Shown one piece after another: positions 815-30,989 of a DNA stretch of 64,000 nt. Position numbers and translations under genes: made by a program. The notes under the pieces were generated by a model. That model made no database searches and was not told the DNA's origin. It saw nothing but the letters and a program-made list of their open reading frames with translations. Source of the stretch: a virus. The stretch covers positions 1 to 64,000 of IMG/VR virus record IMGVR_UViG_3300042904_000073; one strand, given 5' to 3'. Each line of letters begins with the position of its first letter. Positions within the stretch are counted from its first letter, which is position 1.

Positions 815-2429
815 CGCACCTTGGGCCAGCGTGCCCGTATTCTATGGCGACCTTCACTCGCGGGAAACAGCGGGCGCGACCGACGCAGACCTGTACGCCT
901 TCCGGCGTCTCTCTGGTGACGGTGACCGGCCGGATTCTCTCGACCAGGGCACCTTCGAGCGATTCCAGCGGCTCTCTCTCTGGCTCTACTACCAGAACCC
1001 GCTCGCTCGCCGACTTAACGACGTGCCGACCGACATGGTTCTCGGCGCGGGCGTCAACATCGACGTGGAGAAGGTACGAGGCAAGGCCAAGAAGAACGGC
1101 GACCGGGTGAAGGAGCTAATCACTCGCTTCCTGGAACACCCGGCAAACGAGTTCGAGATTCGGCTGCCGAGCCTGTTCACGATGCTGAACACCACGGTTG
1201 GAGAGCTATTCCTGCCCGTGTTTGCCTCCCCGGAGAATGGGGACGTGGCAATCGGGTTCCTGGAGCATCACCTGGTCCAAGACGTGATCTGGAACCCGAA
1301 GAACCGGATGGAAGCTATCGCGGTGATCCAGCGTCCCCCGGCTCCGGGAGAGAAGCCGCTGTGGTGGAACGTAATCCGTGCCGAGCAAGGAGTGGACAAG
1401 CCCGAGTTTCCAGCGCACCCGTCGATCAAAGACCGGAAGAAGGCAGCAACCGACCGAGAGATTGTTCACACGGACGAGAACGCCGAGAACACGTCTGTCT
1501 CCAGGGCTCCACAGGACTATACCTACGCCGGGGAGATTTTCTACTTCAAGGCCAACGTGCTTGGCACCGGCCGGGGTAGATCAGCAATCGAGCCGACGCT
1601 CGACTGGCTGCACGCCTACGACAACTTCCTCTTCGGCGACCTGCGCAACGCGAACATGCAAGCAGCGTTCGTGTGGGACGTAACGATTGAAGATGCGGAC
1701 GTAGTAACGCTGAAGCAGCGTGCCGATGAAATCAGGCAGAATCCGCCACGACCGGGCGAGGTGAACTTCCACAACCAGAAGGAGAAGTGGGAGGCATTGT
1801 CTCCTAACCTGAATGCCGCAAGTCACACCGACCTCGGTATCCAGGTCAAGAAGATCATCGGCCTGGCGCTTGGGCTGCCGCCACACCTGATCGGCGCGGA
1901 GAACAACACCAATCGGACAAGTTCTATCTCCAGTGACATTCCGTTCCTGCGCCGGATGGAGCAGAAGCAGAAGGTGTTGCACTTCTTCGTCAAGACCATT
2001 CTGGACTACCAGCTTGACCAGAAGCGGCACGCAGGCATCCTGAAAGGGGCAGAGCGTCCGTATCCTTACCGGATCGTTCTTCCGTCCTTGACAGCCGGTG
2101 AAATGGTCGCTGTCGCTGAAGCTCTGGCGAACGTCACCACGGCCATCATCGCGGCGATGGAGAGTGGCGTCACTTCTCTGGCTGACGCCCGGCGCATCTG
2201 GTACGCTTACGGGCTCCAGGAAGCGGACATTCCCGAAGGCCTGGAAGATCAGGTCAAGCAGGAGCGGAAAGATGGATTGCTGCCTGATCCGGTCCAGCTA
2301 AAGAAGGACGAAATGGAGCTAAAGGCAAAACAGCCTGCCGCTCCGGGAGCAGCGTCAGCATCCGGTAGAACCGTGGTCCGAGCCAAAACCGGGCAAGGCG
2401 CACCTAGAGCCGCACAGCGCGGAAAGTAG
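804..2429 (+). CDS. Portal protein
   Basis: The 541-residue length and sequence features fit siphophage portal proteins, the dodecameric ring at the unique capsid vertex through which DNA enters and leaves. Visible features are an N-terminal FERFQRLSLW/YYQNPLARR segment, GRGRSAIEPTLDWLHAYDN near residue 255 typical of the portal core, and a C-terminal Ala/Pro-rich basic tail. The ATG start overlaps the preceding stop. A strong terminator follows. The order terL, small gene, portal, protease/capsid supports the call. Confidence 0.88.
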   Translation: MTTSAPWASVPVFYGDLHSRETAGATDADLYAFRRLSGDGDRPDSLDQGTFERFQRLSLWLYYQNPLARRLNDVPTDMVLGAGVNIDVEKVRGKAKKNGDRVKELITRFLEHPANEFEIRLPSLFTMLNTTVGELFLPVFASPENGDVAIGFLEHHLVQDVIWNPKNRMEAIAVIQRPPAPGEKPLWWNVIRAEQGVDKPEFPAHPSIKDRKKAATDREIVHTDENAENTSVSRAPQDYTYAGEIFYFKANVLGTGRGRSAIEPTLDWLHAYDNFLFGDLRNANMQAAFVWDVTIEDADVVTLKQRADEIRQNPPRPGEVNFHNQKEKWEALSPNLNAASHTDLGIQVKKIIGLALGLPPHLIGAENNTNRTSSISSDIPFLRRMEQKQKVLHFFVKTILDYQLDQKRHAGILKGAERPYPYRIVLPSLTAGEMVAVAEALANVTTAIIAAMESGVTSLADARRIWYAYGLQEADIPEGLEDQVKQERKDGLLPDPVQLKKDEMELKAKQPAAPGAASASGRTVVRAKTGQGAPRAAQRGK

Positions 2430-2443
2430 TCACGGAAAATAAA

Positions 2444-2487
2444 GGAGCCAGTTTTTCGGGAAACCGCTAAAACTGGCTCCTTCTTCA
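2444..2487 (+). terminator. Rho-independent terminator after portal
   Basis: A perfect 12-bp stem (2444-2455 with 2469-2480, GGAGCCAGTTTT) with a 13-base loop is followed by TTCTT. It separates the packaging genes from the capsid gene, probably modulating the ratio of portal to capsid transcripts. Confidence 0.85.
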
Positions 2488-2533
2488 CTCCGATAAGTCA
2501 CGTTGTAGGGCAACGACTTTTTGGAGTGTCCCC

Positions 2534-5134: not shown

Positions 5135-5152
5135 GCCCGGCACCGGAAACCA

Positions 5153-5180
5153 GGGGCTCCTTCGGGAGCCCCGCCTTTCC
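5153..5180 (+). terminator. Terminator with UUCG loop after capsid
   Basis: GGGGCTCC (5153-5160), a TTCG tetraloop and GGAGCCCC (5165-5172) form a very stable hairpin followed by GCCTTTCC. It lies between the capsid fusion and the next small head gene. Confidence 0.8.
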
Positions 5181-5220
5181 CAAGTCAGCAATCAACTAAA
5201 GGCCAGATCAGGAGAACGAC

Positions 5221-5634
5221 ATGCTCGGACAGCTTCCCGGTATCTTCTACACCACGCATACCCTTCCCGCGTCCGCGAGCGGCGAGAATACGGCTTACAA
5301 GGTCGTGGCCCCGAATCCGTTCCAGAGCGAGTATGCGAAGGTCGCCAGCATCGAACACGTCCCCATCGAGACCGTGACCGGGGACAACACGAACACGACC
5401 AACTTCAACGCCGACCTCGTGAACGGCACCGAAATCGCCAACAAGGACTACCCGACCGGCGAGAGTGCGGCTCGCGGCGTGGCCGAGGCGTTCACCTTCA
5501 CGGGCACGGCCGCGCAGCGCCGGATCGCGCCGGGTGGTGCCATCCTGATCGAGACCGAAGAGGTGGGCACGCAGCCCGCACGCGCCCACGGGCACGTCAT
5601 TCGGATCGGCTGGAAGGCAGACGGCCTGGCGTAA
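5221..5634 (+). CDS. Small head protein, possible capsid decoration protein
   Basis: This 137-residue protein has a clear start (AGGAGAACGAC before ATG) and sits directly after the major capsid gene between two terminators, the usual place of decoration or cement proteins. It contains Thr/Ala-rich beta-type sequence (GENTAYKVVAPN, GGAILIETEEV) and no membrane segment. The isolated transcription unit suggests high expression. Family membership is not recognised; the decoration role rests on position and size. Confidence 0.6.
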   Translation: MLGQLPGIFYTTHTLPASASGENTAYKVVAPNPFQSEYAKVASIEHVPIETVTGDNTNTTNFNADLVNGTEIANKDYPTGESAARGVAEAFTFTGTAAQRRIAPGGAILIETEEVGTQPARAHGHVIRIGWKADGLA

Positions 5635-12806: not shown

Positions 12807-13664
12807 ATGCGCTCACTACACGCATCCGAGGGAGTCCTGCTCTACTCCCTTCAGTCGGTTTTCGCAACGGCGGTAGCCCCCGCTGAAACGCTCGGCATCG
12901 CGGAATACAACGCGACCGACGACGGGGACTTCCGGCAGTTCTTCACGGTCGGCAAGAAGAACCTGCACAAGAACAAGGCAGGCAACGCGAAGGTGGACTG
13001 GCAGGTTCGCTTGAACGGCCTCGGGAGCCCCGATCTGCTGGCGCTCGGCGTCCGCACTTCCGGCCAGGTGCCGTGGATTACCTGGGGCTTCGGTTCCGAT
13101 GCCGTGGACGCCTCGCCGGAAGCCTGGCAGGTTCAGGACAGCAAGTGCGACACGCTGGAATGCTCGCTCGACGGTGGCGGCATCCTGACGGCCAGCCTCC
13201 AGGGCATCGGCGGGCAGAAGTCCACGCTGACGACCCTGACGGCCGATCCGGGTGACGACAATCCGTTCTTCAGCTACGAAGCCATCTGCACCCTGGCGGG
13301 CAGCGCGTTCGAGTTGAAGGGCTTCCGGTTCACCGTCAACCACAACCTGACGCCGGAGTACGTGATCCGGGGCACGTCCGTCTCTTCGGCTCGCCGCCGA
13401 CTGTGGGACTACCTGACGGAAGGCAACGAGGAAATCAGCGGCTCGGTGATCCTGGCCCGCAAGTACTCGAAGGACTTCCAGGCGCTCTGCCCGGCCGCTG
13501 ACGGCGACCTGGTGCTGACGCTCACCGAGGCGTGCGATGCCCTGAACACGTTCGCCATCACGCTCGAAGACGTGGAGTTCTTGAGCCAGGCGCGGAACAT
13601 GCCCGCCGATGGCTACGGGACGTTCGAGCTTCCCTTCAACGCCAAGGGATGGTCGGTAGCGTAA
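12807..13664 (+). CDS. Major tail (tube) protein
   Basis: The 285-residue protein is beta-rich, begins MRSLHASEGVLLYSLQSVF and contains NHNLTPEYVIRG and AITLEDVEF, in keeping with siphophage tail tube proteins of similar size. Upstream GAAGGGAG precedes the ATG at 12807. The strong, high-GC codon bias and the terminator directly downstream suit a highly expressed tube subunit. The frameshifted chaperone and tape measure genes follow, the conserved order for tail tube genes. Confidence 0.7.
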   Translation: MRSLHASEGVLLYSLQSVFATAVAPAETLGIAEYNATDDGDFRQFFTVGKKNLHKNKAGNAKVDWQVRLNGLGSPDLLALGVRTSGQVPWITWGFGSDAVDASPEAWQVQDSKCDTLECSLDGGGILTASLQGIGGQKSTLTTLTADPGDDNPFFSYEAICTLAGSAFELKGFRFTVNHNLTPEYVIRGTSVSSARRRLWDYLTEGNEEISGSVILARKYSKDFQALCPAADGDLVLTLTEACDALNTFAITLEDVEFLSQARNMPADGYGTFELPFNAKGWSVA

Positions 13665-14544: not shown

Positions 14545-17500
14545 GTGGATCAGGAAACGCTAAAGCTCGTTCTGGAAGCTCACAACGCAGCCTCTCCGAT
14601 TATCAAGCAGGTCAGGAATGATCTACTTGCTGCGGAGAAGGCTGCGACGAGTTTGAACAAGTCGCTCAAGATCAAAGCGTCCGGTGCATCAGAAGTGCAG
14701 CGGACTATGCAGGGCATTAAGCGCCAGATCACCGAAGTGATCCAGGCTGCTGATCGACTGCATAAAGCTCTACGTGTTAAAGCCACACGAGACGCTTCTA
14801 TCGGCTCTGTGTTCAACGGTATTCGCTCCGAAATCAAGAAGACGATCCAGGAAGCAGACCGGCTGCATAAAGCTCTTAACACCAAATCGAGCGCAAAGGC
14901 TTTCTCCAATACCGACCTGGCGAAGTTCGTAAAGGACCTTGCTGCGGCTGCAAAGAATGTGCGCGACTTGAAGGCATCGCTGCGCAGCAACAACCTGAAG
15001 CTGACTTTCACTTTCAGCTATCGCGGCTCGAAGTCGATGGACAAGTTGATCGCCGACTTGCGAGCCGTAAACAAGCTGCTGGCGGTCACGGCCAGCCGTT
15101 CCGCTGCGGCTGCCAGTGGACTCAACGGCCTGCGCGGGCCTCGGGTCAATACCGGAGGTGGCGGCGGCGGCGGCGGGAACGGCAACCGAGCAAACAAGCT
15201 GTTCTCTGCTGTCGGCGATGTTTTCGGCGGTGCCGGTGAAGCGATAGGCGGGGTTGGCCGGGTTACCGGAGCCATCATGGGCTTCGGCGGTACGCTCATG
15301 CGTGTCGGCGACTTCGCGCTCGGGTTCGGCAAGGCCGTTATCAGCGGAGTCGTGGGCACCCTTCAGGAAGTGGAGAAGGCTGCGGCGGTCACTACCGGGG
15401 TACTAACCGGGCTCGGCGTAGTTACCGCGAAGCTCGGCACCGACTTCAACCAGTTCAAAGAGAACACCCTTCAGACCTTGGCCGCGCTTACCAAGAGCGG
15501 AGAGAAGGCGCAGAAGATTTTCGACTTCTCGTTCCAGCTTGCCATTCCGGCCAAGTTCACGTTCGAGGAAGTCCTGGAAGGCGCACGCACGCTCGAAGCA
15601 TTCGGCATTAGCCTTGACCGTCACGGCCAAGCCACGGGTCGCTACCTGACCAACGCAGTAGCACTGGCACAGGGTATGGAGAAGCCGCTGGCGCAGGTGA
15701 CCCGGTTCCTCGGCAACCTGTCCCAAGGCCGTTTGCTGCTACAGCAGGCAGCGCCTCTCGGCATGGGCCGTCAGACGCTCCAGCAGTACGGCGTCGAGTT
15801 CGATAGCCACGGTTCGGCGACCGACCGGACCAAGCTGCTTGAAGCGGCGATGAAGGCAATCGAAGATCGGTGGGGCAGCCTGCTTGATAAGATGGCGAAC
15901 ACCTACGAGTCCAAGCTCGACTCTATGGTGTCCATGACGCGCATGTTCTCTGGCAAGATCACCGAGGGGTTGTTCGGCCATCTGACCAAGGCCTACGGCA
16001 ACGTCGCTGACCTGTTCCAGAACCTTATCGACCCGAAAGCTATTGTCAACGGCGTAGAAATCTCCGTCAAGCAGGCCGAGGCTCGTGTCAAGACCCTGAA
16101 GGAAGAACTCGCGGGTCAGAAGTCGATGCAGCAGGAGTACTCTGGCGGCAGCTACTCCCCGCAGCTTCGGACAGAGACGGCAGAGGGCATCAAGTCCACG
16201 GAGCAGGAGCTTGCCAACGCGACCAAGACCCTATCGGCTGTTAAGGCTGAACTCGGGCCGGTCTACTCACTGGTTGAAGCTCTGAAGACGCCGTTCGACT
16301 TGCTCGGGTCGGCCATTGAAAAGGCGACCGAGGCGTTGCCGGGGTTCGTCAACTGGCTTTCCCAGGTGCTCACCAAGGACCGCATCATCGACTTCCTGTC
16401 GGAAATCATTGCGGTCGCTCGGGTCATGTGGGAGGACTTCCAGGAGTTCTTCAATCAAGCCAGTGGCGGCAAAGGCCTGGTCGGTATCTGGGAGAACTTC
16501 CGCAACTTTGCTCTGGATGCCATCGACGCTGTGATGGAAGCGTGGACCGAGTTCCGCGCCAACGTCGAGTATGCGATGAAAACGGCACCGGAGCTATTCG
16601 CCATGCTGATCGAGGCGGCGGGCCAGTTGAAGGCGGCTCTGGAAGCTATCGTCGGCTTGATGGTGCTGAACTTCGGGGCGCAGGTAGCGTCGGGCATCTT
16701 CCAGATCGTGGGCGGCATCGGGCAGATGGTCGTGGGAGTAGTTCGCCTGGTCGGGCTGATGCGCGGCGGCGGCGGCTTCCTGGGTGCCCTGAAGCAGATG
16801 CTAGGGCTCGGAGGTGCCGCAGGGGGCCAGACGGCCGCTGGCGGGGCTTCTGGGGCCGCTGGCGCGGCTGCCAGTAATGGCGGGCGGATGGCGGCGGCAA
16901 TGGCGAAGATGCCGAAAGGCTTGGGGCCTGCTGGCATCGTAGGTGCGCTCGCCGATTGGGGGACCAACCTGCTGCCTGACAACGAAGGCGGATGGGGCAA
17001 GCATGGCGCGGCTGGTGCCATCGGGAAGATCGGTGGCCGGGCTGCAAGCATGGCCGCTACCGGCGCTATGGTGGGCTCGTTCTTCCCTGGACCCGGTACG
17101 GTGATCGGCGGGGTTGTTGGCGGGGTTGGCGGTGCAATCTGGGGTGGCATCGACTTCGCTAACGGTCGCAAGGACTACGAGGAGCGCAAGCGTGCTGCAA
17201 CTCACAAGCGTGGTCTGACTATCAACGACATTAAGTCGGCCAAGCAGAAGTGGGAAGAGTCCTCGAATGTGCAGCTTCAGGGGATGGCCGGAACCGCGCA
17301 GGGTGTTGGCAAGTGGGCTATCGGTCAGGCTACCGGGATGGCTGGAGACGCTATTCCTGAACGGTTCAAGCAGTGGAACGCCGAGCGCGAGAAGTACGTA
17401 GCGGGCCAGATGGACGGTGCTAAAGGCCGTGCTGCCCGCCGACGCGAGCGCCTGGGATACCGGGACAAAGCCAAGGAGTTCCTGAACGGTCTCACGGGCG

Positions 17501-18720
17501 GCGAAATGGAAATGCCCAAGGACAAGAAGGGAGACGACATTTCGCCTTCCACGATCATCGGCGGCGGCAGTCAACCCGGCCACGGTGGCTTTACCTACGT
17601 CGGCGATATGCCGAAGCCGCAGGATCAGTTCCGTGACCCGGATGTAGTGTCGGCACAGATCGAAAGCTACGAGAGCCGCTTCAGGGGAATGACCAGTAAC
17701 GAGCAGGCCATCGCTCGACAGAAGCTACTCCCGCTCTACCAAGAGAAGATGAAAGGCGACCGGGAAGCTGTTACTGCTGCGCAAGAGGAAATGGCAAACA
17801 CCATTAACTCGTCTGGTCAGCAGAAATCGGAAGACGAAACGAACAAGGACAAGATCAACTACTGGAAGGCAATCGAGAAATTCTGGAAGTCTGAAGCAGA
17901 AGTCCAGGAGATTCAGCGCGAGGCGCAAGACGCTATTCACAATCGTCTCAAAGAGGCGAATGAAGCACGAATGGCGGCGGTGCAAGCGCAGATCGAACTC
18001 TTGCCAGATAGTCAGCAGGCGGCGGCTCGCCAGGCGCAGTTGGTCCCATACCTGGCGCAGCAGCATCGGCTAGTCCTGAACAAGCTGAAGACGGTCCAGA
18101 AGGGCTCTCTTGAAGAGTCTCGACTTCTCGAAGAAGAAGCGAAGATAAGGAAGCAGATCACCGAGACCAAGAACGAGGCTGTAGACGAAGCGGCGAAGCA
18201 GGCGTTCGAGGGTCCCAGGCGTCAGTTCGGCACGTTGAAGAAGCTGATCGGAATGATGCCGAAGGGCTCGCAGAAGGGTGCGATGCAGGCGCTCTTGATG
18301 CCCCGGATCAAGGCGGCTATGGCCGGTGCGCAGCAAGAGCGAGACCCGGTGAAGCGCCAGGAGAAGCTGCTTGAAGTCGCCGACATGTTCAGCGAACTGA
18401 AGGAAGCCAAGAAGTCTGGCGACCCGTTCAGCGGTATGTTCGACAAGGCAATGGCAGGCGAGCGCCAGGGTGCCATTGGGCGCTACCAGCAGATGTTGAT
18501 GGGGCGCAAGAATGGCCGTGGTCAGCGGATCGGCAAGCAGAAGGACATTTTCGCTGCTATGTCGCCGTTCGCTCCGGGAGCCGGTGTTGGCGGCGGAACA
18601 GCGTTTTCGCAGGACAAGTTCACGCAGCTAATTTTCCAGCTTCCGGTCAACGCAAGCGAACAACAGATCGCTGATTTGATTATGAAGGTAATGCAGGACC
18701 AGATGGGTCCTGGGAGGTAA
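14545..18720 (+). CDS. Tail tape measure protein
   Basis: The longest gene of the window (1391 residues) directly follows the chaperones. It starts with GTG. The N-terminus is helical with repeated ADRLHKAL segments. Residues about 195-300 include a Gly-rich stretch and hydrophobic helices (FALGFGKAVISGVVG). Residues about 690-880 form a second hydrophobic, Ala/Gly-rich region thought to insert in the host membrane. The last 350 residues are charged coiled coil with Gln/Lys-rich helices. At about 0.15 nm per residue it predicts a tail of roughly 200 nm. No lysozyme or peptidase motif is seen in it. Confidence 0.9.
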   Translation: MDQETLKLVLEAHNAASPIIKQVRNDLLAAEKAATSLNKSLKIKASGASEVQRTMQGIKRQITEVIQAADRLHKALRVKATRDASIGSVFNGIRSEIKKTIQEADRLHKALNTKSSAKAFSNTDLAKFVKDLAAAAKNVRDLKASLRSNNLKLTFTFSYRGSKSMDKLIADLRAVNKLLAVTASRSAAAASGLNGLRGPRVNTGGGGGGGGNGNRANKLFSAVGDVFGGAGEAIGGVGRVTGAIMGFGGTLMRVGDFALGFGKAVISGVVGTLQEVEKAAAVTTGVLTGLGVVTAKLGTDFNQFKENTLQTLAALTKSGEKAQKIFDFSFQLAIPAKFTFEEVLEGARTLEAFGISLDRHGQATGRYLTNAVALAQGMEKPLAQVTRFLGNLSQGRLLLQQAAPLGMGRQTLQQYGVEFDSHGSATDRTKLLEAAMKAIEDRWGSLLDKMANTYESKLDSMVSMTRMFSGKITEGLFGHLTKAYGNVADLFQNLIDPKAIVNGVEISVKQAEARVKTLKEELAGQKSMQQEYSGGSYSPQLRTETAEGIKSTEQELANATKTLSAVKAELGPVYSLVEALKTPFDLLGSAIEKATEALPGFVNWLSQVLTKDRIIDFLSEIIAVARVMWEDFQEFFNQASGGKGLVGIWENFRNFALDAIDAVMEAWTEFRANVEYAMKTAPELFAMLIEAAGQLKAALEAIVGLMVLNFGAQVASGIFQIVGGIGQMVVGVVRLVGLMRGGGGFLGALKQMLGLGGAAGGQTAAGGASGAAGAAASNGGRMAAAMAKMPKGLGPAGIVGALADWGTNLLPDNEGGWGKHGAAGAIGKIGGRAASMAATGAMVGSFFPGPGTVIGGVVGGVGGAIWGGIDFANGRKDYEERKRAATHKRGLTINDIKSAKQKWEESSNVQLQGMAGTAQGVGKWAIGQATGMAGDAIPERFKQWNAEREKYVAGQMDGAKGRAARRRERLGYRDKAKEFLNGLTGGEMEMPKDKKGDDISPSTIIGGGSQPGHGGFTYVGDMPKPQDQFRDPDVVSAQIESYESRFRGMTSNEQAIARQKLLPLYQEKMKGDREAVTAAQEEMANTINSSGQQKSEDETNKDKINYWKAIEKFWKSEAEVQEIQREAQDAIHNRLKEANEARMAAVQAQIELLPDSQQAAARQAQLVPYLAQQHRLVLNKLKTVQKGSLEESRLLEEEAKIRKQITETKNEAVDEAAKQAFEGPRRQFGTLKKLIGMMPKGSQKGAMQALLMPRIKAAMAGAQQERDPVKRQEKLLEVADMFSELKEAKKSGDPFSGMFDKAMAGERQGAIGRYQQMLMGRKNGRGQRIGKQKDIFAAMSPFAPGAGVGGGTAFSQDKFTQLIFQLPVNASEQQIADLIMKVMQDQMGPGR

Positions 18721-18725
18721 CCTTC

Positions 18726-19154
18726 ATGATCCGAGAAACGAAGATCACCGGCCAGGAGGCATTCATCCGAATGGCCGGTGATCCCGACGTTGTAAAGCGA
18801 ACAATCAAGCAGTCGCAGGCTGCGTTCCCGCAAGATCGCTGGCAGCAGTCCTGCCACTTCGCCTGGAAGCTACTCTACCTGTCAGGCATCGAAACTGCGC
18901 TCGGCAGCCATCGCGGCGGCTTCGCGCAGAACCTTGGACAGCGCGGATGGAAGGCTGTCAACGTCAAGTCGCCCGGCTGCCTGAAGGCTGGCGACATAGC
19001 CATGACCGAGGAAGGCTACGTCAGCGTGGTCGCCAAGGTGGACACGGCCGGTAATTTCTGGCACGCCGTTGACGTTGGCTGTGAAGAAGGCAAAGCCGTG
19101 CGCCATGAAGGTGTCGGTAGATACCTCTTCCTGCGTCCTGGCGGCGGCGGGTGA
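18726..19154 (+). CDS. Putative tail-associated cysteine peptidase (NlpC/P60- or CHAP-like)
   Basis: A 142-residue protein directly after the tape measure gene. SCHFAWKLLYLSG gives a candidate nucleophile Cys43 at the start of a helix, KAGDIAM is a typical beta-turn of these folds, and FWHAVDVG gives candidate His113. Cell-wall peptidases commonly occupy this site in tail tips. The frame ends RPGGGG then TGA at 19152, and the same frame stays open to 19430, so a stop-codon readthrough form is possible. Confidence 0.5.
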   Translation: MIRETKITGQEAFIRMAGDPDVVKRTIKQSQAAFPQDRWQQSCHFAWKLLYLSGIETALGSHRGGFAQNLGQRGWKAVNVKSPGCLKAGDIAMTEEGYVSVVAKVDTAGNFWHAVDVGCEEGKAVRHEGVGRYLFLRPGGGG

Positions 19155-19430
19155 GGGGATAAGAAAGCTCCGGTCGGAGCATCCCCCAATCCTACAGTGC
19201 CGCCTGAAGTAGCCGCCAGAATGGCTATGTACCCGTTGCACCCGAATCCTCCAGCTAACACCTGGCCGATGCCACAGGAGAAGGTGATCGTCGCCGAGGG
19301 CAACACGATCATCGTCCAGCCGGGAGCCACGGTCTATATCGTGAACGGCGGGCCTCCCACAATCTATGGACCGGACGGCCAGCCTGTGCCGCCTGGAACG
19401 CCTGTTCCGAGACCTGGCAAGAGAGCCTGA
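19155..19430 (+). CDS. Proline-rich small frame, in phase with the upstream peptidase
   Basis: After the TGA at 19152-19154 the same frame runs open for 91 codons. The product is Pro-rich (HPNPPANTWPMP, PPGTPVPRPGKRA). Candidate independent starts are GTG 19197, ATG 19221 and ATG 19227, none with a well-placed Shine-Dalgarno. It could be an independent small tail gene, a readthrough extension of the peptidase, or the remnant of a once longer gene. The next gene starts 2 bases after its stop, so the frame is probably translated. Confidence 0.5.
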   Translation, partial: GDKKAPVGASPNPTVPPEVAARMAMYPLHPNPPANTWPMPQEKVIVAEGNTIIVQPGATVYIVNGGPPTIYGPDGQPVPPGTPVPRPGKRA

Positions 19431-19432
19431 CG

Positions 19433-21970
19433 ATGCCTATACCTGCTGGCTACTGTGATACCGGCGAACGCTTCACCATCCAAGCGAGCGGCACCATCAC
19501 GATCAACTATGGTCCTTGTGGGCCTGACGCTGACGTGACGAGCCAGCAGGTATTCGCGTCTGCCTGGGTGACCCCGGCTCCACAGATCGAGATTAAGCAC
19601 CGGATCAACGGAACTACGGGCTTGGTCGAAGTCTTCGCTGACAAGCCGTGGGCTCCGCTAGACCCAAGCAAGGTAATCATCGACACGGTGTCGCAGTCGT
19701 ACCGTGGCGTCGTGAACGCCGATTACTCGGTGACCGCTGGACCGTTCTACCTGCTTGCGAACTCCTGTGGCACGCTTCATTGGTGGGCAAGCCCTGACAC
19801 CCTCGTTTGCTACTACATCGAAGGCCAGGGTGCTTGCCGGGCGATGTATAGCGGCTGGACACAGATGGTCAACGGCATCGGCGCTACGTCCTTCCAGGGT
19901 AGCCGAGCCAATATGCCAGGTGGCTGTGACGAGAGCAAGCCGTTCCTGCGAATCAGTCACACGGACAACCTCGGCAAGCTGGCTGCACAGGCCGACGCAA
20001 CCAGTTGCGGCAGCCACGTCTGCGTGCGCAAGGATGGCACGAACCTGAAGTGGTGGGTGCAAAGCCCAACCAGCGGGCCGGAAGTGCGAAGCTGGCAGGC
20101 TGGCAACATGACCGCTGAAGCCGCCGCTTGGTGTCAGGCTCGCATCTGCGTACTCGACTCTTGCGACAACACGCCGATCCCTGGTGCCACGGTCGAGATT
20201 TACGATCAGTGTAATCCCCTTACTGGAAATATGGGCGGCGGTGCCTACTTGCTCTCTTCCGGTGTTACCGGGAGCGACGGTTGTGTTACCTTGCCCTACA
20301 AGGGCATGTATGCCGTATTCAGCGTTTACAAGCAGTGTTATCAGAGTGTAGGAGGCAGCGGTTTCGGCTCCGTGGGTGCCTGTAGCTGTGCTGGTAATGA
20401 CGGTAGCAGTAGGCCAGGACTCACTGCATTCCTGCATCCGATGCTGCGCGTCGGCTCTGGCTGTTCAGGGCTGAAGCCGTGCGTCTGCCCTGACGGTACT
20501 ACCTGGAACGAGCAGTGCCAAATCTGTCAACCTGAATGCGGCCCCTGCCAGACCTGGGTTCAGTCTCACTGCCGGTGTGAGACTATGGACACCTCGTGTG
20601 ACGGTGGCCGCATCTTCTCTTGGGACGACTGCGAATGCCACTGCCCTGAAGGGTCGATCCTTTGCAACGACTACTGCATTTACGAGCCTAGTAAACCTCC
20701 GTGTTACGAGGAGCTTAACGGGCGCTGGAACGGCACGACCTGCAATTGGGAAGTAGATGATCCGGTCTTGCCGCTATGCGGCGAGGAGCGGGCTTGCACC
20801 TGGCGCGAGAACCTGTGTCAGTGGTGCTGCATCTTCCACGACGGCAACCCGCAGAATACCGGGTGCCCTTCCGGCTACACCTGGGATGCCGAGAAGAAGG
20901 ACTGCGTAATCCCCGAGCCGGGAAAGGGCTGCCCGCCTGGCTACACCTGGAGTGAAGACGCCGACGACTGTATCAGCGTGACAACCGCTGAAAAGCTATG
21001 TCCTGTCGGCTTCTGGGATAGCAACCGTGGTCAGTGCGTTACTTCGGGCTCGCCCGGTTCAAAGCTCTGCGGCAGCACCGGCTCTTGGGATAACACCTGC
21101 GGGCAATGCACGTATCCGATGCCGTGTCCAGAGGATCACGTCTACGACATTTCTACGTGCGAATGCGTTCTTGATTGTCCTGACGGTGAAGAGGTTTGCA
21201 ACGGCGTTTGCATTCAACGTCCAGAACAGCCTCCCTGTTTCTCGGAGCGTAATTGTCACTGGTCAACTACTGAATGCAAATGGGTGTGTGACGACGCTAC
21301 TTGCGAGCCTAATCATTACTATGATTGGGACGAATGCGAATGCTCGCCTGTTGATAAGAAGTCGAAGTATTCAGGAAACATAGACACCTGCTTTAGCTTC
21401 GATATGACGAAGCTGCACTGGTTCCGTAGTGGCGTATCTCCTGACACGAAGCTCTACGTTGACACTTTCCATCTTGATGTAAGCCAACCCGGAAATTGGG
21501 TTCTGGAAAGCACCGCTGAAATTATAGATAAGGGCGCGTCACCGTCGATCATCAAATGGGGGAGAGACGGGTTCATGTCGTTGGCCTACCTCGACCTGGA
21601 CAGCGGGAACGCAATGTCCCAACTGTGGGACCCGCTCAACGGGGCAAGGAACATGGTAACGGTAGCCGGTGGCGCAAAGTGGGTTGACCACAAGATGGAC
21701 AAGTGGGGCAGGACCGTGTTCGCGGTCTATACCGGCGACTGGTCCGTCTGCATCGGCAAGCTCGGCGGCGACGGCAAGCTGGTCATTTCGGCCGGGCCGG
21801 TGCTGATGCAGGACAAAGACGGGAACGGCATGAACGGTGCCGAATCTCAAGGTTCACTCCTACCTCTCCCCGATGGTGGAATGCTATTCACGTTCACTGA
21901 CAAGAGCGGGAATTCAAAGCAAGTCCACTGCCGAATGCTGAATGACGATGGGAGCGGGGAGTGGAACTAG
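19433..21970 (+). CDS. Cysteine-rich tail protein with EGF/TIL-like repeats
   Basis: This 845-residue protein has three zones. Residues 1-335 are a beta-rich region with scattered Cys and a carboxypeptidase-regulatory-like segment (DNTPIPGATVEIYD). Residues about 336-650 contain about 45 cysteines in short modules of the type CPDGxxxCNxxC, CPxGYTWxxxxxxC and WDxCECxC, including a near duplicate pair (PPCYEELNG... and PPCFSERNC...). The rest is a Cys-poor beta domain, perhaps a propeller. No signal peptide is present. Such density is typical of secreted, disulphide-knotted eukaryotic modules and is very unusual in a phage tail. Position between peptidase and tail-tip genes suggests a receptor-contacting tip protein. 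Confidence 0.6.
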   Translation: MPIPAGYCDTGERFTIQASGTITINYGPCGPDADVTSQQVFASAWVTPAPQIEIKHRINGTTGLVEVFADKPWAPLDPSKVIIDTVSQSYRGVVNADYSVTAGPFYLLANSCGTLHWWASPDTLVCYYIEGQGACRAMYSGWTQMVNGIGATSFQGSRANMPGGCDESKPFLRISHTDNLGKLAAQADATSCGSHVCVRKDGTNLKWWVQSPTSGPEVRSWQAGNMTAEAAAWCQARICVLDSCDNTPIPGATVEIYDQCNPLTGNMGGGAYLLSSGVTGSDGCVTLPYKGMYAVFSVYKQCYQSVGGSGFGSVGACSCAGNDGSSRPGLTAFLHPMLRVGSGCSGLKPCVCPDGTTWNEQCQICQPECGPCQTWVQSHCRCETMDTSCDGGRIFSWDDCECHCPEGSILCNDYCIYEPSKPPCYEELNGRWNGTTCNWEVDDPVLPLCGEERACTWRENLCQWCCIFHDGNPQNTGCPSGYTWDAEKKDCVIPEPGKGCPPGYTWSEDADDCISVTTAEKLCPVGFWDSNRGQCVTSGSPGSKLCGSTGSWDNTCGQCTYPMPCPEDHVYDISTCECVLDCPDGEEVCNGVCIQRPEQPPCFSERNCHWSTTECKWVCDDATCEPNHYYDWDECECSPVDKKSKYSGNIDTCFSFDMTKLHWFRSGVSPDTKLYVDTFHLDVSQPGNWVLESTAEIIDKGASPSIIKWGRDGFMSLAYLDLDSGNAMSQLWDPLNGARNMVTVAGGAKWVDHKMDKWGRTVFAVYTGDWSVCIGKLGGDGKLVISAGPVLMQDKDGNGMNGAESQGSLLPLPDGGMLFTFTDKSGNSKQVHCRMLNDDGSGEWN
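20440..21390 (+). repeat. Cysteine-module coding repeats
   Basis: Three module types recur: CPxGxxxCNxxCIxxPxxPPC (20641 and 21177 regions), CPxGYTWxxxxxDC (20860 and 20930 regions) and WDxCECxC (20620 and 21330 regions). Repetition is at the protein level; the DNA copies are diverged. The second half is more AT-rich than the flanks. Confidence 0.65.
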
Positions 21971-24184
21971 ATGGCTGAAAGGGTAGTCCCGATCCTTCAG
22001 ATTCGCCGTTTCAGGAACGGGTCCGAGCCTTACTTCGGACCCGGTTCTGACTTCGGCTATTCCTGGTACTCTTCGCTTAACAATGAGTTCAAGTTCGGTA
22101 GCGTAAGTTACCTGTCCGTGGACTCTGTTCTAGGCGCACCGATCTACGCTCCGATGGTGGAATACATCGGCACGGAACGGATGCGTACCGCCAACCGGGA
22201 TAACGGGCACGACGTGCCGATTGGCCTCGTGATGAAGCCGTTCGTCATTCCCAAAGACGTTGGGGAATGGGAAACGCTGCCTGGCGACCTGGGTGTCTGG
22301 GAGACTCGCACGTCTTTCATGAACCCTCCCGTGGAGCTTCTGACGCAGAACTTCCAGGGTGTTGACAGCGCGGGAGACACGGTAATCGCTCCGTGGGGCT
22401 CGCAGTCCACCTACTCCCATCCTGGCCTGCCGAGCTTCGCGTTCACGATCCTGCCTGCGGCGGTCTCGCCGGATTACAACCCGTTCGTCGGTGGCGTCCC
22501 CTACAGCCAGGTTGCCTGGTCTGGCGGCAAGTGGGCTATCCGGTTCTTCAATCACGGCAACCCGGTACTGATGAAGTCCTTCGGCGGCATCATGGTCCCG
22601 CTGATGGAGCTTGGCTCACCGGCCCGAATGAACAACGGAGACAACCCCGATTTGATCGAAGGCATCGTGCGGCACCAGCGGGGAGCCCTGATGATTTCGA
22701 TGGACCACGGGGCAACCTACGACGTGTGGTGGGAGCCGACCAACACTCCGGTCTCTTGCCCGTCTGGCAAGTACCAGTTCACCGGCTTGGGGATGGCGGC
22801 GGCTCTAGGCATTCACCAGGTGGCCTACGGCGACGATCAGAACCACGGACACTACGACAGCCCGAAGCTGCCAATGGAGCGACTTCGCGCCGGGTCGCCA
22901 ACGCTTGTCAACTTCAGATACGCGAACGCGACGAACACGGCGGTCACCGTCCAGAACATCGCGCCGACCACGACCACGACCTACATGCAATACCGGATCA
23001 ACATGACGGCCGGTGTTGTGAACACGTCGCACTTTGCGTATTACTACTCCCCCGAATCGTATGCCGTGGAGTTGGCGTATCCGACCACGCCAAGCCTCTA
23101 CTTCCCGATGCACGACAACGGGGCGACGTTCGAGGGGCGTATTCAACAGCTTACCATTGACAAGCCCTTTGAACTCGATGAAGCGACCTGCTCTTTCACC
23201 TGCCGCTACACCGTAGACGAAGGCGGGCCGCAAGGTAGCTTCGGGCTCAATCTGATTCAGGTCTGGGGTGGTTGGCAGTATGACGACGGGTCGAACGACG
23301 TTGATCTGCTGTTCACCGGCTACCTGGTTGATCCGAAGGTTACCCAGGTCAACAGCAACTACATCACCGTCAGCTTCACGGCTCACTCTACAGCCTTGCG
23401 CCCGAAGCGGATGCAGTGGCGAGACAGTAACGCCTCGCCATACGATGGCTTGACGCCCAACCAGGCACTCTTGAAGTGGGCCGTCTCGATGGGTCTCAAC
23501 GCCAGCTTCCTCGCCTTCGACAGCACCGGCCGGGGAGACAACGTGCTGCTGCCCGCCGAGTCGCCGGAAGAACCTGCTTACGTGCCCGTGGTCGGCGAGG
23601 CTCGATGGGACATTATGGCGAAGATCGCCGAGTATGCCCGTCTGGAGCTTGGCGTAATGAACAACGGCTCGTATGCTCTCTTCCCGAGCGACACGTTCGT
23701 GTTGACGCCTTACACCTGGGACGCCGCGCCGGTCAACAACAACACCTCGCACATTGAGAGCATCAGCCTGGAACAGCGCGTGCTAGACACCTTCACCGGA
23801 GTTTTAGTGCGCGGGCGAACAATGTGGAATGCTCAAATAGCCGCTTGGATATACGACAGTGACGCCGAGACCAATATCTTCAGTAGTAGGTTCCGACCCT
23901 GGCCGGAATGGACTGTGGAGACTATCGACCATCCGGTAACTCCGCAGTGGCTTGGGCAGGTAGCTCTTGGCCTGGCCTGGAACAAGATCGTCCCCAACTT
24001 CGAGCTTACCTGGAAGGGCGAGCTTGCCACCTTCGTTTCCAGGCGTCACGCCGTCTGGGTGCGAGGCACGACGGTAGGGGCGGGCAACTTGGTCAAGGTC
24101 GGCGTGCTATCGCTACGGCACACCTTTGACCGGAACGACCCGATGATGGCGTGGACCGAGGTGCGCGGAAGGAAGCTCTCCTAA
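21971..24184 (+). CDS. Large tail tip or baseplate protein
   Basis: The 737-residue protein starts on the base after the previous stop. It is beta-rich and aromatic-rich (DFGYSWYSSLNNEFKFG, QVWGGWQYDD) and in the second half resembles tail hub proteins (LLFTGYLVDPKV, followed by a segment with TPNQALLKWAVSMG and RWDIMAKIAEYARLELG). Such proteins link the tail tube to fibres. Its stop overlaps the next small gene (TAATG). No enzymatic motif is seen. Confidence 0.55.
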   Translation: MAERVVPILQIRRFRNGSEPYFGPGSDFGYSWYSSLNNEFKFGSVSYLSVDSVLGAPIYAPMVEYIGTERMRTANRDNGHDVPIGLVMKPFVIPKDVGEWETLPGDLGVWETRTSFMNPPVELLTQNFQGVDSAGDTVIAPWGSQSTYSHPGLPSFAFTILPAAVSPDYNPFVGGVPYSQVAWSGGKWAIRFFNHGNPVLMKSFGGIMVPLMELGSPARMNNGDNPDLIEGIVRHQRGALMISMDHGATYDVWWEPTNTPVSCPSGKYQFTGLGMAAALGIHQVAYGDDQNHGHYDSPKLPMERLRAGSPTLVNFRYANATNTAVTVQNIAPTTTTTYMQYRINMTAGVVNTSHFAYYYSPESYAVELAYPTTPSLYFPMHDNGATFEGRIQQLTIDKPFELDEATCSFTCRYTVDEGGPQGSFGLNLIQVWGGWQYDDGSNDVDLLFTGYLVDPKVTQVNSNYITVSFTAHSTALRPKRMQWRDSNASPYDGLTPNQALLKWAVSMGLNASFLAFDSTGRGDNVLLPAESPEEPAYVPVVGEARWDIMAKIAEYARLELGVMNNGSYALFPSDTFVLTPYTWDAAPVNNNTSHIESISLEQRVLDTFTGVLVRGRTMWNAQIAAWIYDSDAETNIFSSRFRPWPEWTVETIDHPVTPQWLGQVALGLAWNKIVPNFELTWKGELATFVSRRHAVWVRGTTVGAGNLVKVGVLSLRHTFDRNDPMMAWTEVRGRKLS

Positions 24185-24408: not shown

Positions 24409-26718
24409 ATGGCAACAACTGTCTATAACCTTCAGAACGATGCGGCGAAGTGCAAGAAGATCAGCAGCGCCCAATGGAACAAGCTCGCCAACACGCTTGA
24501 ACTCGTGGCGGTCAGCTTGGCCGAGTTCGGCGGCTCTGGCTTCCTGACGGCAGGAGACTTCAATGCGTCGGCTGTGGTCGGGCAGAAGAAGGCCTCGGTC
24601 TCTTCCGGCCGGGTGATCGTCGGAGAGACCGGGGAGCGCAAGCTGGTCCACGAAGACGACCTCCAGGAAGTGGACCTGGTAGGCACCACAGTCTCGCCGC
24701 AGGTCAACTACGGCTACGTGACCCAGGAAGGCACCGTCACCGTAGTTCAGAACCCCATGAACGCGCCTGCAAACTCGATGCTGGCGTGGACCTGTGACTG
24801 CGACGACGATGGGGGCTCGAACTTCGACAACTTCCCGGATGGCCGGGTAAACCTGCTCTCCTTCCTGGCGCTCAAGGTCACGGGCGACGACCGGCAGGGT
24901 GGCTACCTGAATGACAAGCTGGACGCCGGTACGGGTGTCACGCTCACTGTCACTGGAACGGGAGCCGACGAGAAGCTGGTCATTGCCGTGGACCCGGCCG
25001 CTATTCTGGACTACAAGGTCAAGGCGGATGGCACGGACACGCAACCCGACTACCTGGGAGACGCGCTGCTCGCGGGCACGGGCATCACCGTAGCTGTAGA
25101 GACCGTCAGCGGCACGCAGCGCAAGGTGCGTATCACCAACTCGGCACCGGACGATAAGAAGCTCCTGACGAGCGGTGCCGACACCGTAGCCGCTTACCTG
25201 GGTGCCAAGCTGTCTGCGGGTGCCGGTATCACCATCGAAGAAATCGACGGGGCTCCAGGCGCGGGCAAGATCATCCGTATCACGGCCGACGCAGCCGAGG
25301 AGGGCGGCACGGACATTAAGGTCAAGTCTAGCGCGGCCGATGCCGTGGCGGGCTACCTGTCCGACAAGCTCCAGGAAGGCGACGGCATCACGATTGAAGT
25401 CGTGGACGGTGCAGAAGGCGAGAAGCTGGTTCGCATCACGTCGGCCACGGCATCGCTGGTCAAGGTAGACGAAGACGACACGACTTCAGGTTACCTGGCT
25501 GACAAGCTGTCAGCCGGAACCAATATCAGCTTGACAGTCGTTGAAGACGAGGAAACGGGCGAGAAGACTCTGGTGATCGCCGCCGATGCGTTCGAGTCCA
25601 GCGATGAACTGGTGAAGACCTCGGCGGGCGATACGGTAGCCGAATACCTGGCAGCCAAGCTGACGGCTGGCACTGGAATTGCGGTCGAGGAACTTACGGA
25701 AGCCGTCACTGGCCGCAAGTACATTCGGATCAGCAACTCGGCCACGACTGCTGACGAGAAGGTGAAGGTCAACGGCTCCGACACGCAGGCTGATTACCTG
25801 GGCAACAAGCTGATTGCCGGTTCCGGTATCGCCATCGACACCGTAGTAGCGGGAACCGTTCGCACCCTGCGAATCAGGAACACCGGCAGCGGCATCACGA
25901 AGGTGGACTTGCCCGAGTTCACGGTGACCCTCGAAGACAGCGACCAGCTTGTGCTGAAGCTGGACTTCGAGGAAGTGGGCGAGTTCCCGGATGGCCGCTA
26001 CTTCGTCTGGGTGAACCTGACGCGAGAAGACGAGAGCGAGGTGCCCAACGGCAAGATCGTGGTCACCGAAGGCATCATGGAGAAGACCGGCTCCGTGTGC
26101 TACCTGTTCGTCCAGGTCGCCTGTGACGCCGGGCTCGGCGCTGACAGCCTGGACACCGAGGACATTACGTTCAACGTCTCGGTGGCTGGCACGGGTTACG
26201 CTACGGCAGGCGGCACCACTATGACGGTAACTCCGGTGGAGTACTGCAACACGGCTGATGATGTAGCCGCGCAGAAGTATGACGCCCCCGTGGGCGCGTT
26301 CTTCATGGACGACATTGGGACCAATATCACCGGGTCCGAAGGGTCGTTGAAGAATGCCTGGATGGGTGGTGCAGTCTGCAAGCAAGGGCTCCTCGGAAAC
26401 ATAAGCGGTAAAATCACGGGCGCGGTCCTTACGTTCAGCAACGTGGATTGGGGTAGCTCGGACGCAGAACTGGAAATCAAGTTCAAGACAGATGGCTCCG
26501 GTGGCGTTGAAACGGTGACCGTTAGCCCGAACCCGGAAGAAGCGATTTCCGGTTCCTACGGAACTATCGCTATCGACCTGCAAAGCCTGGACTTCCCGTT
26601 GGATATAGCTAATTACCACGTATGTTGGGTAACCGCTCGCCTGGCGGCGGGCAGCCTGAACAGCGGGGTCACGCTCGGAGTAGTTCTTTACGGTTGGACA
26701 GGGAATAGCCAGTCATAA
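24409..26718 (+). CDS. Tail fibre protein with seven beta repeats
   Basis: A 769-residue protein with a helical N-terminus (QWNKLANTLELVAVSLAEF), then seven repeats of about 45-50 residues (residues about 154-495) with the signature YLxxKLxAGTGITIxxx followed by a K-x-xRI strand, and a C-terminal receptor-type beta domain. Similar repeats are common in phage fibre shafts. The stop overlaps the ATG of the glycosyltransferase gene, tying the two products together in expression. Confidence 0.75.
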   Translation: MATTVYNLQNDAAKCKKISSAQWNKLANTLELVAVSLAEFGGSGFLTAGDFNASAVVGQKKASVSSGRVIVGETGERKLVHEDDLQEVDLVGTTVSPQVNYGYVTQEGTVTVVQNPMNAPANSMLAWTCDCDDDGGSNFDNFPDGRVNLLSFLALKVTGDDRQGGYLNDKLDAGTGVTLTVTGTGADEKLVIAVDPAAILDYKVKADGTDTQPDYLGDALLAGTGITVAVETVSGTQRKVRITNSAPDDKKLLTSGADTVAAYLGAKLSAGAGITIEEIDGAPGAGKIIRITADAAEEGGTDIKVKSSAADAVAGYLSDKLQEGDGITIEVVDGAEGEKLVRITSATASLVKVDEDDTTSGYLADKLSAGTNISLTVVEDEETGEKTLVIAADAFESSDELVKTSAGDTVAEYLAAKLTAGTGIAVEELTEAVTGRKYIRISNSATTADEKVKVNGSDTQADYLGNKLIAGSGIAIDTVVAGTVRTLRIRNTGSGITKVDLPEFTVTLEDSDQLVLKLDFEEVGEFPDGRYFVWVNLTREDESEVPNGKIVVTEGIMEKTGSVCYLFVQVACDAGLGADSLDTEDITFNVSVAGTGYATAGGTTMTVTPVEYCNTADDVAAQKYDAPVGAFFMDDIGTNITGSEGSLKNAWMGGAVCKQGLLGNISGKITGAVLTFSNVDWGSSDAELEIKFKTDGSGGVETVTVSPNPEEAISGSYGTIAIDLQSLDFPLDIANYHVCWVTARLAAGSLNSGVTLGVVLYGWTGNSQS
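24868..25893 (+). repeat. Seven fibre-shaft repeats
   Basis: Seven imperfect tandem units of about 135-150 bases encode YLGDKL.AGTGI.. units followed by a strand ending RIT or similar. Unit sequences differ enough that the array should be stable. Confidence 0.75.
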
Positions 26719-28286
26719 TGCACGTTTATAGAGGCATGGGGACACAGGAAGTAGGGCAAGGTGCCCACAGACCAATCGAGGCGCTGTGGCGGGCATGGGG
26801 ACCCGCCCGGCGCCCTCTTCGTGACTTGAACGCGCCACTCGGTATCGGGGTGATTACCTACAACCGGCGCGAGCATGTAGTCAAGCTCGTGGAAGCCATC
26901 GAGCGCCACACCAAGACTCCGTTCTACCTGGTGATCGCTGACGACGGCTCCACGGACGGAACTTCGGCCTGGGCGCGGGACTGCAACATCCCCGTGGTTA
27001 CCGGCCGCAACCTGGGGGTGGACTGGAACAAGAACCGGGCTACGCACTACCTGGCGCACAATACGAAGGCCGAGACCTTCATCCTTCTGGAAGACGACGC
27101 GCTTCCTTGCGAGGATGGATGGGATCGACTGTGGATAGATGCGGCCCGGCGCTGGCAGCACGTCACCTACGCCAACGATTGGGTCTTCAAGCACAATCCC
27201 ACCGGCAGTGGAGTACCTGGCAATCCTTACGTCACGCAGAATTGGGTCACGGGCCAAGTAGACGCTACTTCGCGGCACGGGCTGGAGAAGGTCGGCTACT
27301 TCGACACCCGCTACTACGGCTACGGGTGGGGTCACGTCGAGCGCGACTGGCGGTTCCGCTGGCAGTTCAACCAACCTGGCTTCCTGTCGATGGATCGCGG
27401 GATCAAGTCCGTAGATGCAGGCACCTTCCGCAACGAAGACGAGGTAGCAGGCAACCGCAGCATCTTCGAGCAGATCAAAAACGAGGCCATCTACCGCCAT
27501 CCTTACCGGGGCGAGGTAGAGAGCGACCGCCTGGTTCACGAGCAAGTCCGGTCTACGTGGCCGCTGGCTCCTGACGCCTGGGATACGAGCAAGCTGTCGG
27601 TGATCTGTCCGACCCGCAGGCCGGAACTGGCTCACCGGATGTATGCCTCGCTGATTGCCAGCAATCCCGGCTTCCCCTTCCAGATGGTGTGGGCCTGGAA
27701 CGGCGAAGGCTCCTGCGACCTACCGGGAACGGTCGTGCCCTACTTGGAGCAGGACTTCCGTTACGAGGAAGCAATCAACCGGGCTGTTATTCAGTCTACT
27801 GGCGGCGTGCTAATGATCGTCAATGACGACATTGTGCTGCGCACTGAAGGCCTCTTTCAGAGGATTGTCAACGCCTACAAGCACGATCCTCGACTCGGCG
27901 TTCTCCACGGCCAGCAACCGGGCTCCTGGTCCGTTATGTCTGACCCGAACGCGCCCGGCTGGAACGGTGCCTGCTGGACGATCCGGCGCGAGGCGTTCTG
28001 CGAAATGGGCGGGCTCGAAGAGACTCTGCTCTCGTACGGCGGCGACGAATTCGTTACCAGGGTGCGCATGAAGCGGCTCGGCTGGAACGGCGGGCGTTGC
28101 ACCGGGTGGGAGTATCACCACGACAGGCATTCCAGCTACGGTGAAAACCCGAATACTCACCAGTCAACCTACGAAGCTGCGATGGCTTTGGGCTGGCACG
28201 GGGTGTCGAAGCATCTGAACCAGGCCGTGGCCGGTCAAGCGCAATCCATCATTCTGCGGGCCGAGGGTCTTGCACGCAAGCTCTGA
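26718..28286 (+). CDS. Two-domain glycosyltransferase (tandem GT-A, GT2-like)
   Basis: The 522-residue protein contains two GT-A domains in tandem. Domain 1 (about 38-260) has GVITYNRREHVVKLVE, VIADDGSTDGT and ILLEDDALP, the last being the metal-binding acidic motif. Domain 2 (about 290-480) has SVICPTRRPELAHRM, MIVNDDIVL and GGDEFVTRVRMKRLGW. It presumably transfers sugar from a nucleotide-sugar donor. The start ATG overlaps the tail fibre stop, which points to modification of fibre or other virion proteins, or of a host surface glycan. Confidence 0.75.
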   Translation: MHVYRGMGTQEVGQGAHRPIEALWRAWGPARRPLRDLNAPLGIGVITYNRREHVVKLVEAIERHTKTPFYLVIADDGSTDGTSAWARDCNIPVVTGRNLGVDWNKNRATHYLAHNTKAETFILLEDDALPCEDGWDRLWIDAARRWQHVTYANDWVFKHNPTGSGVPGNPYVTQNWVTGQVDATSRHGLEKVGYFDTRYYGYGWGHVERDWRFRWQFNQPGFLSMDRGIKSVDAGTFRNEDEVAGNRSIFEQIKNEAIYRHPYRGEVESDRLVHEQVRSTWPLAPDAWDTSKLSVICPTRRPELAHRMYASLIASNPGFPFQMVWAWNGEGSCDLPGTVVPYLEQDFRYEEAINRAVIQSTGGVLMIVNDDIVLRTEGLFQRIVNAYKHDPRLGVLHGQQPGSWSVMSDPNAPGWNGACWTIRREAFCEMGGLEETLLSYGGDEFVTRVRMKRLGWNGGRCTGWEYHHDRHSSYGENPNTHQSTYEAAMALGWHGVSKHLNQAVAGQAQSIILRAEGLARKL

Positions 28287-30134: not shown

Positions 30135-30989
30135 ATGTCTCGTGTTATCCCCGCTTCCTGGATGCCCGACGCTCGCATGGTCGGCATCGTCAATCACTGG
30201 ACGGCCGGTCCCTACCAGGCTACGTCGCTCGATAAGCGCGACTACCACATCATCATCGAGGGTGACGGTCGCCTGGTGCGCGGCAACCATGCCATCCCCG
30301 ACAACATGAGCGTCCACGATGGCGACTACGCTCCGCACTGTGGACGCCACAATACGGGCTACATCGGCGTCTCCGTGGCGTGCATGGCCGGTGCCATCGA
30401 AGTCCCGTTCTACGCGGGCAAGTCCCCCATGACGAAGAAGCAGTGGGACGTGATGATGGCTGTGAACGCCGACCTGTGCGAGCGGTACGGCATTCCGGTC
30501 ACCCCCAAGACCCTCTGCGGCCACGGTGCCATCTATGGGCACTTCGGCGAGGCGAACCTGAAGGGCAAGTGGGACCCGCTGCGGCTCCCGTGGGACAAGG
30601 GCTTGAGCAAGACGGACGCCGACCGGCTGATCCGAGTAGAGACCAGCAGGCTCATGGACGGGTCGAAGAGTCCGGTCCTGCCCGCCGAAGACCTGAAGCC
30701 GATCCTCGTCAACATGAACGGGGTCACGATCAGCGACGACGCCTTCAACGAGAAGAACAAGGTCTGGGTGCCGCTCCGGGTGCTTGCCGAACCGATGGGT
30801 TGTCGGATCGTGGACACGGATGGCAGGACGGTCCTGGTCACGGACAAGACGGGCAAGCCCCATCACCTGGACTTCCAGATCAAGGGCGGGGTCGGCTTCG
30901 TGAAGGTCGGCGACCTCCGCGAGCAGGTAGGCGGCATCGCCACGGAGTGGAACGGAATCCACCGGATTCTCAAGGTAACCCTGGTTTAG
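30135..30989 (+). CDS. Endolysin: N-acetylmuramoyl-L-alanine amidase
   Basis: The 284-residue enzyme starts at ATG after AAAGGAG. Residues 1-160 form an amidase_2/PGRP-type domain: IVNHWTAGPY (zinc ligand His21), RDYHIIIEGDG, HNTGYIGVSVAC and CGHGAIYGH (second ligand His near 131). It cleaves the bond between MurNAc and the stem peptide. Residues about 195-284 (ILVNMNGVTISDDAF, VWVPLRVLAEPMGC) match the copper-amine-oxidase N-like domain often found in secreted wall-associated proteins and probably aid wall binding. No signal peptide is present, so a holin is needed. Confidence 0.85.
   Translation: MSRVIPASWMPDARMVGIVNHWTAGPYQATSLDKRDYHIIIEGDGRLVRGNHAIPDNMSVHDGDYAPHCGRHNTGYIGVSVACMAGAIEVPFYAGKSPMTKKQWDVMMAVNADLCERYGIPVTPKTLCGHGAIYGHFGEANLKGKWDPLRLPWDKGLSKTDADRLIRVETSRLMDGSKSPVLPAEDLKPILVNMNGVTISDDAFNEKNKVWVPLRVLAEPMGCRIVDTDGRTVLVTDKTGKPHHLDFQIKGGVGFVKVGDLREQVGGIATEWNGIHRILKVTLV

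Follow-up and report, generated by a model that had tools for sequence, protein, structure and literature searches.

A cysteine-packed repeat domain in a phage tail-region protein: a candidate disulphide-rich module

The gene at positions 19433–21970 (+ strand) of the window, the 64,000-nucleotide stretch of phage DNA analysed here, raises the question of what a dense array of cysteines is doing in a tail gene cluster, and whether these residues are joined by disulphide bonds or occupied by metal. The window is a piece of an IMG/VR virus record of 64,082 bases, and the gene is an open frame coding for a protein of 845 amino acids with 63 cysteines.

A cysteine-rich gene in the tail cluster

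The protein can be divided into four parts, all encoded on the + strand. The N-terminal part (aa 1–235, 19433–20137) contains 9 cysteines and has no family match. It is followed by a segment with 7 cysteines (aa 236–335, 20138–20437), a possible carboxypeptidase-regulatory-like (Ig-like) domain, whose match to Pfam PF13620 (E 0.047) is under the curated cut-off. The cysteine-rich domain proper (aa 336–652, 20438–21388) holds 44 cysteines in 317 residues (13.9%), an even number, which bears out an earlier estimate from the sequence alone of about 45 in about 300 residues. The C-terminal part (aa 653–845, 21389–21967) has 3 cysteines and no family match. The N-terminal 335 residues are also cysteine-enriched (16 in all), a feature absent from the sequence-only reading. 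By comparison, the remaining called genes of the phage contain 196 cysteines in 17,480 residues (1.1%), and the neighbouring tail genes 0–2%. A search for a hydrophobic signal-like stretch at the N-terminus of the 845-aa protein found none. The presence of a cysteine-packed repeat domain within one open frame is thus confirmed.

The phage is a tailed one, encoding a portal, a protease–capsid fusion, a replicative DNA polymerase, helicases and a ribonucleotide reductase, as well as an ORF whose profile match (phrog_85) is to thymidylate synthase. A tail gene lies at 12807–13664 (phrog_290, E 1.3e-8). The probable tape measure protein (14545–18720, + strand; 1391 aa, no cysteine) is assigned by its length and position, with a weak match to phrog_1047 (E 8e-4). 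Between it and the cysteine-rich gene are a small gene without a family match (18726–19154, + strand) and a 69-aa frame (19221–19430) that directly precedes the start of the cysteine-rich gene. The stop codon of the latter abuts the ATG at 21971 of the next gene, a tail protein (21971–24184, + strand) with a weak match to phrog_1887 (E 6.6e-4). The cysteine-rich gene is therefore located within the tail gene cluster, on one strand with the probable tape measure gene upstream and the phrog_1887 gene downstream, and a tail-tip location is consistent with this gene order. The label of tail protein given to it earlier is supported by gene order and by the weak profile matches of its neighbours, but the 845-aa protein itself matches nothing. 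The neighbouring tail gene is likewise without a relative in our searches, and the portal and capsid of the phage retrieve only the same phage in IMG/VR.

Two further genes of the window deserve mention. A glycosyltransferase gene (26718–28286; phrog_2456, E 8e-25) directly follows the probable fibre gene, and its product could serve to modify either the virion or the surface of the host. An amidase gene (30135–30989) has a weak match to a stalk domain of the copper-amine-oxidase type (Pfam PF07833), which may give a clue to the host group.

Repeats, families and folds

The domain contains repeats with conserved tryptophan, proline and glycine. Three recurrent motifs had been described from the letters alone, and two of them were found as such: CPxGxxxCNxxC is present twice (CPEGSILCNDYC and CPDGEEVCNGVC), as is CPxGYTWxxxxxDC, at aa 478 and aa 500. 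The third, WDxCECxC, occurs only once in its full form, with the shorter WDxCEC present twice (WDDCECHC and WDECECSP). There is also one duplication of about 80 amino acids, comprising the large repeats R1 (aa 383–470, 20579–20842, + strand) and R2 (aa 557–640, 21101–21352, + strand). Their alignment scores 152, compared with a maximum of 110 in 5,000 shuffles in which the cysteines were kept fixed.

Eight small units and three W-hairpins occupy much of aa 336–652, all on the + strand. The small units are CPDGTTWNEQC (20486–20518), CDGGRIFSWDDCEC (20597–20638), CPSGYTWDAEKKDC (20864–20905), CPPGYTWSEDADDC (20930–20971), CPVGFWDSNRGQC (20999–21037), CGSTGSWDNTC (21068–21100), CPEDHVYDISTCEC (21125–21166) and CEPNHYYDWDECEC (21302–21343). 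The regular expression C..[WYF][DNS]..C, composed after the sequence was seen, matches eight times, against a mean of 1.95 in cysteine-fixed shuffles, and 4 of 20,000 shuffles reach eight. The W-hairpin units follow C-x5-[C]-x-W-x4-C-x-W-x-[C], where the bracketed cysteines form an optional pair. This pair is present in CGEERACTWRENLCQWCC (20777–20830; aa 455/466) and in CFSERNCHWSTTECKWVC (21236–21289; aa 608/619), and both of its members are missing from CYEELNGRWNGTTCNWEV (20702–20755), where G430 and V441 stand instead. The three units fitting C-x5-x-x-W-x4-C-x-W were matched by none of 20,000 shuffles. Since the repeats exceed what cysteine-fixed shuffling produces, cysteine density alone does not account for the pattern.

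Family searches gave no assignment. Nothing in Pfam, PHROGs, NCBIfam or the PDB sequences matches the cysteine-rich domain; in Pfam, no family was found at E ≤ 10 for the isolated domain, nor EGF, TIL, EB or VWC at E ≤ 1 in the whole protein. No whole-protein homologue was found in IMG/VR, genome_contigs, cultured phages or the PDB, and an alignment-guided scan for a 55-aa repeat gave 38 candidate stretches, none of which was confirmed.

The AlphaFold model of the whole domain was poor (pLDDT 49.5), and a fold search with it gave no match at E 0.001. A better model was obtained for 82 residues of R2 (aa 559–640; pLDDT 79.5, pTM 0.52), from an alignment whose second row was R1, the protein's own repeat. 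In this model, strands 50–53 and 58–61 pair as a hairpin, with Cys608 facing Cys619. Nearly all of its top PDB rows are disulphide-rich extracellular proteins (furin-like, EGF and LRP-type), none of them at E ≤ 0.001, and nothing in the viral library fell below E 0.001. The nearest local geometry is that of the furin-like cysteine-rich repeats of ErbB/IGF1 receptors and of the Pfs25 EGF modules, that is, tandem short disulphide-closed hairpins, with about 35 residues superposed at 1.2–2.4 Å in several rows. The best furin-like row has E 0.47, probability 0.84 and TMq 0.34 over 38 residues; with E 0.47 or worse, TM-scores of 0.34 at most and no sequence match, this likeness does not amount to membership. 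The proposed kinship with EGF, TIL, EB and VWC modules is accordingly not supported, nor is membership of any other Pfam family. By analogy with these neighbours, the domain would nevertheless work like a disulphide-rich extracellular module.

Disulphide, metal and the time of folding

Taken from sequence and model together, disulphide bonding appears better supported than zinc. The optional cysteine pair of the W-hairpin is gained or lost as a pair, an argument drawn from three copies within one protein, and its members Cys608 and Cys619 oppose each other in the predicted hairpin; both features are as expected of a disulphide and count as support rather than proof. A related unit, CPxGYxWD(x5)C, points the same way: its two cysteines are the sole cysteines in frame in seven distinct viral proteins of 405–1188 aa, a situation that fits a self-contained disulphide better than a four-cysteine metal site. 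The disulphide-type modules proposed at the outset thus stand as the better reading, on the paired loss of cysteines, the hairpin model, the fold neighbours and the conserved cysteines of an analogue described below, while the families named with them do not.

The main alternative is that the cysteines are metal ligands (for zinc, iron or Fe–S clusters), giving a metal-stabilised tail-tip domain. Such binding would not conflict with folding in a reducing cytoplasm, and it has a precedent at the same place of the virion: in phage lambda gpL and in the RcGTA hub, four cysteines hold one Fe–S cluster at the tail tip (PMC10721106, PMC7296036). What is shared is a tail-tip cluster of cysteines with a function. 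However, those proteins have four cysteines and a single cluster, without tandem modules, whereas 44 cysteines are present here, and a search of PHROGs gave no tail-tip match to the 845-aa protein at E ≤ 1, including none of the gpL Fe–S type.

Zinc sites use CxxC pairs. In the domain, CxxC accounts for only 4 of the 43 gaps between successive cysteines, and histidines number only 6, so that the CxxC/H knuckle pairs and four-ligand sets of a zinc ribbon or finger are not seen. The same phage does encode a protein of the zinc-ribbon-like type (42661–43014, − strand; 117 aa, 11 cysteines in CxxC pairs), with the CxxC...CxxC pattern that the domain mostly lacks. The variation of cysteines in pairs also speaks against metal, as does the absence of any zinc or iron fold from the highest-ranked PDB rows of the 82-residue model. 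A zinc-binding fold or a known unrelated tail domain would have told against the disulphide-type modules, and neither appeared among the profile matches or the highest-ranked rows of the fold search. We therefore regard metal binding as unlikely.

A tail protein closed by disulphides had been called unusual in view of the reducing cytoplasm, a statement that proves too strong. In phage Milano, disulphides are numerous in the tail and baseplate of the mature virion, whose structural proteins contain about 2.1% cysteine and form an extensive inter-subunit network (PMC10811340). In the siphophage T1, the tail tube protein forms inter-ring disulphides along the tail tube (PMC11945409). Since these tails contain such bonds, a reducing cytoplasm is no barrier to them. 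The parallel lies in the presence of disulphides in a siphophage tail (T1) and in their formation despite cytoplasmic assembly of the tail (Milano). The differences are that the T1 bonds join rings of the tube, without a cysteine-rich domain, and that the Milano cysteines are spread across structural proteins with inter-subunit bonds, compared with 13.9% in one repeat domain here. No description of cysteine-packed tail modules was found in the open-access library consulted.

The reading that we favour, at roughly 55%, is that of a disulphide-hardened tail-tip stalk or adhesin of a siphovirus-like phage, oxidised after lysis. The gene product would be a tail-tip (baseplate or adsorption) protein, in whose middle third small hairpins closed by disulphides make up a rod or a surface. 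The 845-aa chain would be synthesised, and built into the tail, in the cytoplasm while its cysteines are still reduced, as is presumed from the absence of a signal-like hydrophobic stretch. After lysis, oxygen or environmental oxidants would close about 22 disulphides. The closed modules would then be rigid and resistant to proteases and would serve as a stalk or adhesive surface that faces the host, with the N-terminal attachment part on one side and the C-terminal domain on the other. Counting against this reading, no thiol oxidase, disulphide isomerase or other thiol redox gene was found among the phage genes scanned.

Alternatively, the disulphide network could act as a redox gate, in which the bonds lock a ready tail tip and their reduction at the host surface triggers ejection. 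This has been proposed for Milano, where the sheath and baseplate disulphides must break for contraction, which is triggered by DTT plus guanidine (PMC10811340). The Milano bonds, however, include many between subunits, at about 2% cysteine over many structural proteins (PMC10811340). Here, 44 cysteines lie in small units of one domain, next to tail genes with 0–2% cysteine, an arrangement that would yield intra-domain bonds and makes a gate improbable.

Some thermophiles keep an oxidising cytoplasm or have their own oxidase, and in a host of this kind the domain would fold before lysis and be ordinary for that host. Such hosts do exist, but the DNA polymerase, the probable tape measure protein and other cytoplasmic phage proteins are not enriched in cysteine, and unrelated phages also carry cysteine-packed proteins adjoining tail genes; we hold this explanation to be slightly more improbable than the gate.

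Finally, it is very improbable that the frame is an assembly chimera or a non-coding artefact: although no relative of the gene was found in any collection searched and the sole other contig of the same phage (L002) carries other genes, spanning window positions 1–5477 only, the frame is long, single and free of frameshifts, its start and stop abut the adjoining genes, its repeats are evident at the protein level, and its synonymous codon use (−1.03 for the domain, −0.99 to −1.14 for neighbouring genes) and third-position GC are continuous with the surroundings.

Cysteine-rich genes in other phages

Cysteine-packed frames also recur beside baseplate genes in other phages. These analogues were retrieved through cysteine-containing patterns and represent a selected set, not a frequency in phages. 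A 990-aa protein with 167 cysteines (16.9%) and a collagen-like stretch (L091:10333–13302, IMGVR_UViG_3300005613_000098) is encoded within a T4-like baseplate cluster with a hub (phrog_430, E 4e-100), gp25 and gp6. It resembles the 845-aa protein as an extremely cysteine-rich gene product of a baseplate cluster, but its cysteine pattern is different, with many CC pairs, and there is no evidence of homology between them. A relative in a second contig (L003, compared with L004) keeps all 90 aligned cysteines, against 314 of 366 other residues (86% identical), and the sole internal indel (12 aa) removes four cysteines. A frame of 2894 aa with 242 cysteines lies near gp6- and gp25-like baseplate genes (L093:1–8682, IMGVR_UViG_3300032073_000011), and six consecutive cysteine-rich frames (3.6–7.7% cysteine) are found downstream of a major head gene (L094:12474–19001, IMGVR_UViG_3300034418_007243), the two of these scanned having no family match. 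No known family matched the cysteine-rich parts of the scanned analogues, and none of the analogues has detectable homology to the larger repeats of the 845-aa protein.

The CPxGYxWD(x5)C pattern was found in 75 stretches of the collection, a pattern-selected count that stands without a shuffled expectation. Among the proteins with this unit are a head maturation protease (L036) and a tape measure protein, so that the unit, alone, is no marker of the tail or of the outer surface. In L036, L038, L039, L061 and related loci, two tandem units of this type follow a protease part; L036, the one of these loci scanned, matches head maturation protease profiles. As the matches were selected by pattern and include head and tape measure proteins, shared ancestry of these loci is not claimed. 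The CECxCPxGxxxCN pattern gave three viral hits and one bacterial hit. One viral hit (L005) lies opposite an ordinary gene, and the bacterial one (Polyangium, L088), overlapped on the other strand by a ferredoxin-like frame, was set aside as a chance match. The S-SM2 and P-TIM68 relatives of L051 were also set aside, as they lack the cysteine units.

A modular architecture rich in disulphides is considered typical of proteins secreted by animals and parasites. We tentatively suggest, at less than even odds, that dense domains rich in disulphides have been incorporated repeatedly into the tail tips and baseplates of environmental phages that are not related to one another. Such domains would be synthesised in reduced form in the cytoplasm, would oxidise once the cell has lysed, and would be a counterpart of the EGF- and furin-like extracellular modules of animals that is undescribed by the family libraries tested. 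If phage tails do carry such modules, at 8–17% cysteine, virion maturation must include a step of oxidative folding after lysis. Tail adhesins would then gain an unrecognised route to stability and diversification in harsh environments, and genes that go unrecognised by these libraries could be named.
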